DNA from: Sphingomonadales bacterium
GTDB lineage: Bacteria; Pseudomonadota; Alphaproteobacteria; Sphingomonadales; Govanellaceae
DNA length: 64,000 bases
Reading direction: 5' to 3'
NCBI GenBank assembly: GCA_019455285.1
Contig: JACFMS010000002.1
Coordinates: 124,001-188,000 of the forward strand
Part shown: positions 61,900-62,103 of the stretch, piece by piece
Position numbering within the stretch: position 1 is the stretch's first letter
Layout of the letters: the number at the start of each line of letters is the position of its first letter
The notes under the pieces: model-generated
Database searches by the model: none
What the model saw: only the letters and a program-made list of their open reading frames with translations
What the model was told of the DNA's origin: nothing
Program-made: the position numbers and the translations under genes

Positions 61900-62103
61900 A
61901 TCCCGGAACCCCGTGCGGTTATCCCACTTCCGTCCCACAACGCAGTGCTGTTATCCCGACATCAGGGGTCTTTATCCCACTTCCATCCCGGATCAGCTCG
62001 GTTTCATCCCGCTATAGGCCATTTTATCCCACTATCCCTGCCAAATATCCCACTCTTATCCCTGATAAAGGCGGTGCCATCCCACTATGAGTTCAGCCAT
62101 CCT
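61900..62103. repeat. Helically phased array of ATCCC boxes
   Basis: Boxes with core ATCCC, often TTATCCCACT, begin at 61900, 61921, 61932 (GTCCC), 61953, 61974, 61985, 62006, 62026, 62047, 62058, 62079 and 62099 (ATCCT). Steps are 21, 11, 21, 21, 11, 21, 20, 21, 11, 21 and 20 bp, all close to whole turns of B-DNA. One extra box at 62034 is out of phase. A further TTATCCCAC lies at 62432-62440. The plan fits cooperative binding of one protein along a single DNA face, as with iterons of replication origins, partition sites or large operators. An open frame across it is not a gene. Confidence 0.8.

Follow-up and report, generated by a model that had tools for sequence, protein, structure and literature searches.

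Near one end of a genomic island in a Sphingomonadales bacterium, we find an array of twelve TTATCCCAC-type boxes (61900..62103, plus strand) that sit on a 10.5-bp lattice and thereby on one face of the DNA helix. All positions refer to the window, the whole 64,000-nucleotide stretch of DNA that was analysed (contig JACFMS010000002.1, 124,001 to 188,000). The array itself is real. Its role can be stated less firmly: our leading interpretation, in which we place slightly less confidence than doubt, is that, in an island whose serine recombinase targets tRNA genes, the attachment site includes the array as an accessory element resembling an arm. A broader proposal, which we regard as possible but rather doubtful, is that a whole family of serine recombinases, associated with DUF2924 and usually with DUF3489, integrates at the 3′ ends of many different tRNA genes by means of a tRNA-like attP core with a phased array flanking it, and that TTATCCCAC represents a second, genus-specific arm.

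Architecture and conservation of the array

The original prediction had listed twelve ATCCC boxes at this locus. Ten of them are exact and on the lattice (61900, 61921, 61953, 61974, 61985, 62006, 62026, 62047, 62058 and 62079), while those at 61932 (GTCCC) and 62099 (ATCCT) are degenerate; an additional exact ATCCC at 62034, which lies off the lattice, was missing from that list. Each site is a clear 9-bp box. The steps from box to box measure 21-11-21-21-11-21-20-21-11-21-20 bp, so that the predicted unit of 21-11-21 is indeed present three times, and the span of 199 bp corresponds to 18.95 × 10.5 bp, in agreement with the 19 turns that had been proposed. The predicted enrichment and phasing also held up against controls. 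In 220 bp, we count 11 exact ATCCC motifs versus a mean of 1.36 and a maximum of 6 in dinucleotide-shuffled sequences, none of which (0/5000) reaches the observed number; the window as a whole is not rich in ATCCC, with 49 sites on the plus and 54 on the minus strand. The Rayleigh R is 0.876 at 10.5 bp, which is the peak over the range of 9.5–11.5 bp, and this R is reached in 0/20000 random placements of 11 boxes, as expected if the boxes share one helical face. If the period may take any value from 10 to 11 bp, the phasing has a p-value of 1e-4.

An open frame of 147 aa with a TTG start (61720-62163, plus strand) runs through the array. Since the boxes occupy different reading frames and since single-base indels in the homologous arrays (20 + 21 bp versus 21 + 20 bp) would break the frame, it is very probably not a gene, which accords with the earlier view that the repeat is non-coding.

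The self-identity of the array is maximal at a lag of 53 bp (0.52), i.e. at five helical turns, and this higher-order repeat suggests that the array may have grown by duplication of a 53-bp unit. The same self-similarity would be left behind by a decaying, neutral tandem repeat of 53-bp units, but the comparison with homologous arrays points the other way. We found two such arrays, both in the same-genus genome G001, which a pattern search of the species collection also recovered (contig QEVO01000009.1). All three arrays have the 21, 11 and 20 bp spacings in common, and where the window has a 20-bp step followed by one of 21 bp, G001 has 21 bp followed by 20 bp, so that the indels compensate and the total register is unchanged. 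Furthermore, across these three arrays, invariant columns make up 87% of the box cores versus 58.5% of the spacers (Fisher p = 1.4e-4), and the contrast between cores and spacers is greatest where the comb of boxes is aligned exactly. In this sample of three arrays, the conservation argues for box cores that are sites of sequence-specific binding; the neutral tandem repeat appears largely refuted, and we accord it hardly any probability.

When 84,980 species genomes were searched for phased ATCCC boxes, 19 stretches were returned, of which only the two G001 arrays are homologous to that in the window; the others look like unrelated tandem repeats or chance occurrences. Homology searches in plasmids and phages found no homologs of the array. 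Three viral contigs from IMG/VR (L029, L030 and L031) have phased TTATCCCAA or CTATCCCACGG arrays of their own, which are not homologous to the window array; the one on L029 adjoins a primase/helicase-like gene. Among open-licence papers, we found no published description of these arrays or boxes.

The island and its attachment site

Judging from an empty site in a genome of the same family (G003), the island is inserted at the 3′ end of tRNA-Ala (GGC; 43567..43642, plus strand), with its left edge at about 43643: in G003, the tRNA-Ala is directly followed by the backbone that resumes in the window at 64104, which shows a precise insertion. Next to this edge lies the gene of a large serine recombinase with Resolvase and Recombinase domains (43896..45569, minus strand), whose stop codon is 254 bp from the tRNA gene, together with genes for a DUF2924 protein (45566..46402, minus strand) and a DUF3489 protein (46363..46824, minus strand). 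The scan of the island genes further yielded a DUF5681 protein (58033..58974, minus strand) and an N6/N4 DNA methylase (59119..60621, minus strand) with a weak ParB_N-like domain that scores below the Pfam cut-off. The scan returned no tyrosine integrase family, the serine recombinase being present instead. These neighboring genes and the empty site support the earlier assignment of the array to an island linked to serine recombinase, DUF2924 and DUF3489 genes. As cargo, the island carries a cation-efflux set at 47453-57711 (Cation_efflux, P-type ATPase, RND pump and MerR regulator). The G001 methylase (L006:13412-14125) has lost its middle part, residues ~187-383 of the window protein, and has kept the ParB_N-like part and the C-terminus.

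At the other end of the island, the TTATCCCAC array has beside it another array, built of TTCCCTGTT boxes and in part decayed (62271..62398, plus strand), with boxes at 62271, at 62293 (22 bp apart) and at 62392 (99 bp on), and an inverted AGGGAATT near 62310. It is followed by the attR-side end of the attachment site (62448..62479, plus strand; AGAGACCAGTTCGCACTTGACTGCCAGCACCA), which resembles a tRNA from the T-arm to the CCA and lies within a 37-bp match to G001. The exact position of the right island edge is uncertain (62480-64104), with the attachment end at about 62479. A Fic/DUF4172 gene (62609-63736), which separates the attachment end from the backbone and is absent from the empty site in G003, may be a separate, second insertion.

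Within this end, the TTATCCCAC array lies 376–579 bp inside the attachment core and beside the TTCCCTGTT array, and an isolated TTATCCCAC box (62432..62440, plus strand) is found between the TTCCCTGTT array and the core, ~40 bp from the CCA. G000 and the first G001 copy each combine a TTATCCCAC array with TTCCCTGTT boxes and the terminus; in the window and in this copy, the TTATCCCAC array has the methylase towards one side and the TTCCCTGTT array on the other. Both box types are alike in design, having a TCCC centre and steps of 11 and 21/22 bp, and it is this likeness and the placement side by side that lead us to view the TTATCCCAC array as a putative second arm. The attachment cores themselves differ (CAGCACCACC in the window, CAGCGCCGCC in G001), which suggests that the two islands target distinct tRNAs and that the array moves together with its island. 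The tRNA-Ala end and the attachment end of the window share CACCA, and we found no longer direct repeat. The remaining paired TTCCCTGTT box of the window is 87 bp from the CCA, from which it appears that its own TTCCCTGTT arm has drifted.

Other functions have been considered for such a locus. Iterons are typically direct repeats in helical phase, about two turns apart. The window array likewise consists of phased direct repeats and is followed by an AT-rich stretch (42–45% GC at 62050-62500 versus about 65% beyond), as an origin might be; an iteron-type origin and a centromere for a ParB-like protein had both been put forward originally. However, the island genes scanned include no replication initiator and neither ParA/ParB nor ParM/ParR, the sole trace being the sub-threshold ParB_N-like domain, which is fused to the methylase, and the wider context is that of an attachment site. 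We consider it quite unlikely that the array serves the excised circle as origin or centromere, and the original interpretation is, overall, partly supported.

Somewhat less probable still is an operator array, in which a repressor on all boxes would regulate a promoter located within the array or adjacent to it. There are two promoter-like matches on the minus strand (62126-62099 and 62198-62169), but four promoter-like sites in the region compare with 2.0 ± 1.5 expected, no gene follows the array in the array's orientation, and 19 turns are long for an operator.

The ends of IS21, Tn7 and Mu resemble the array in that their transposases bind a number of direct repeats at two-turn intervals (PMC10122671), and IS21 ends have repeats 23 bp apart and conserved segments at a distance of one DNA turn (PMC10122671). 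A DDE-type transposon end of this kind, with a transposase on the repeated sites, nevertheless seems very improbable to us: IS21 ends usually have about two repeats, whereas we observe 12 boxes at one end only, and neither such a transposase nor an inverted partner array as a second end was found in the window. For an IS21-like end in particular, the IstB/IstA pair is missing in G000 and G001, where the longest IstB-family match is a partial AAA-type one, and we rejected this candidate.

Related arrays and tRNA-linked recombinases in other islands

The arm interpretation draws on a comparison with other islands. In other genera, methylases related to that of the island (57–72% identity) have a TTCCCTGTT array 5′ of their gene, and a pattern search detected TTCCCTGTT arrays in 16 of 149 related genomes, many of them adjoining a methylase or a serine recombinase. 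Their layout comprises a series of boxes spaced by 22 bp, a gap, an 11-bp pair, an inverted box and a conserved terminus; that of the window is alike, though partly decayed. In all 11 islands of such layout on a single contig (G000, G001, G082, G098, G123, G127, G135, G140, G144, G149 and G153), DUF2924 and the recombinase are found at the end opposite the array, 16–61 kb away and read outward, which indicates that the array marks the opposite island end; for G001, DUF2924 and DUF3489 alone were found there. Exceptions, in which the array stands beside the recombinase, are G139, G150 and the viral contigs L167 and L204. In three other viral contigs (L156, L162 and L189), recombinase, core and reversed array adjoin, as expected for attP in a circle. 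DUF3489 was detected near the recombinase in most, albeit not all, islands examined.

In eight islands, a distance of 210–257 bp separates the end of the recombinase match from a tRNA gene's 3′ end, the five specificities being Ala, Leu (three times), Thr (twice), Phe and Ser (G000, G082, G123, G127, G140, G144, G149 and G153; loci L139-L146 and 43567-43896 of the window). This runs contrary to the statement of the Islander survey of 2015 that tRNA genes were not among the known targets of serine recombinases (PMC4383910). In G098, G001 and G135, we saw no adjacent tRNA. At the other end, the array terminus reads like a tRNA from the T-arm to the CCA (AGAGAC-GGTTCG...CACCA or CTCCGCCA), and direct repeats of the tRNA end are found at both island ends in G149 (25 + 17 bp), G123 (11 + 26 bp) and G144 (12 bp). 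The direct repeat reaches ~40 bp past the CCA of the tRNA in G149 (L101/L140) and G123 (L099/L139), and in both cases the two copies of one genome are more similar to one another than to those of the second genome.

The distance from the first paired TTCCCTGTT box to the CCA is 71–76 bp in nearly all loci and 82–83 bp in two, and the gap between series and pair is either 96–99 or 108–109 bp. For both distances, the variants are one helical turn apart, as would be expected of a complex that depends on phase. The TTCCCTGTT boxes of these other islands are in a fixed helical register with the core. The expectation that the array is kept in related islands is borne out in part: the TTATCCCAC array is known from one genus only, but a sibling, phased TTCCCTGTT array is present at the corresponding end.

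The adjoining RNA repeats and toxin–antitoxin genes

Upstream of the array, the window contains two copies of a putative small RNA, repeat A (60930..61040, plus strand) and repeat B (61730..61841, plus strand), with parD (61182-61427, plus strand) and parE (61417-61716, plus strand), an antitoxin–toxin pair, between them. The RNA repeats have two helices in pseudoknot order, P1 (CCATGC/GCATGG) and P2 (CCGGAC/GTCCGG), followed by an intrinsic terminator, which in repeat B is located ~60 bp before the array; in the G001 copies, a promoter-like TTGACT/CTAATG was also noted by eye. Among the six copies, two in the window and four in G001, one P1 pair and two P2 pairs show changes on both sides. 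A covariance model retrieved all six copies and one weak match (E 0.003) in 149 relatives, and no Rfam family matched the repeats at or above the gathering threshold. We also considered repeats A and B as integron attC sites and rejected this by eye, the GTTRRRY partner being absent.

Repeat B and the array form a single homologous block (61719-62086) in both G001 copies, and the RNA repeat is also found without the array. In the second G001 copy, the neighboring genes encode a FitA-like RHH antitoxin and a PIN toxin instead of ParDE; because the type of toxin–antitoxin pair changes while the array stays, we ruled out that the array is the operator of the neighboring antitoxin. These observations would fit a separate, portable block of small RNA and array, with toxin–antitoxin genes, that landed near the island end and serves its own maintenance or silencing. 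We judge this to be unlikely, yet the most credible of the alternatives: in both loci with a recognizable island end, the block is found beside the attachment site in the same position. Near the second G001 copy (C3:115.6 kb), no such site was found, but this copy is close to the end of its contig, and its right flank is divergent immediately past the array, so that the loss of an attachment site is conceivable here.

Several observations also count against the arm-like role that we prefer. The TTATCCCAC array is limited to one genus, and islands elsewhere manage without it; it lies at least 376 bp from the core; and it shares a block with the RNA repeat, near whose second G001 copy no attachment site was found.

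A possible mechanism and its precedents

If the array is an arm of the attachment site, a small DNA-binding protein would bind its boxes head-to-tail on one face, one per helical turn or two. The leading candidate for this protein is DUF3489, for two reasons: its gene accompanies that of the recombinase, and modelling yields a winged helix for its C-terminal half. DUF2924 is the alternative. In the low-confidence model, helices at residues 91–101, 106–113 and 117–129 and strands at 133–139 and 142–148 follow each other in winged-helix order, while the model is poor outside the C-terminal domain. Its best Foldseek matches are winged-helix repressors of the ArsR/MecI type, with weak E-values of ~0.01. 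The stiff or wrapped nucleoprotein arm formed in this way would help bring the island ends together and would set the direction of the recombinase, integration or excision, at the neighboring tRNA-CCA core. The TTATCCCAC array may then act as a second arm peculiar to the genus, in parallel with the TTCCCTGTT arm, whose place it possibly takes as the latter decays.

Parts of this arrangement have precedents. The arm sites of tyrosine integrases, such as those of lambda Int and of tRNA-targeting ICEs like ICEMlSymR7A, likewise combine short repeated boxes, a tRNA-gene core and fixed helical distances, but the enzyme here is a large serine recombinase, for which arms have not been described. The winged-helix directionality factor RdfS binds attP and oligomerizes into filaments (PMC11963761), and in the case of BldC, one DNA turn lies between bound molecules (PMC11963761). 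We propose a similar head-to-tail assembly of winged-helix proteins near att, with about one turn per subunit; unlike RdfS, for which a consensus motif is absent, the array offers a distinct box at each site. Lastly, a large serine recombinase gene also adjoins a DUF2924 gene in phage WO (PMC10299305), where sr1WO prophages integrate in a magnesium chelatase gene rather than a tRNA gene (PMC9203015), and the excerpts of these two sources make no mention of a phased array.

Implications

For well-studied serine integrases, short att sites suffice, which also speaks against an arm-like role; these enzymes are prized for att sites that are thought to be short and self-sufficient. If the boxes described here were required, this would mean that a helix-phased protein scaffold can govern serine recombination, as it does with tyrosine integrases, and DUF2924 and DUF3489 would gain a function.
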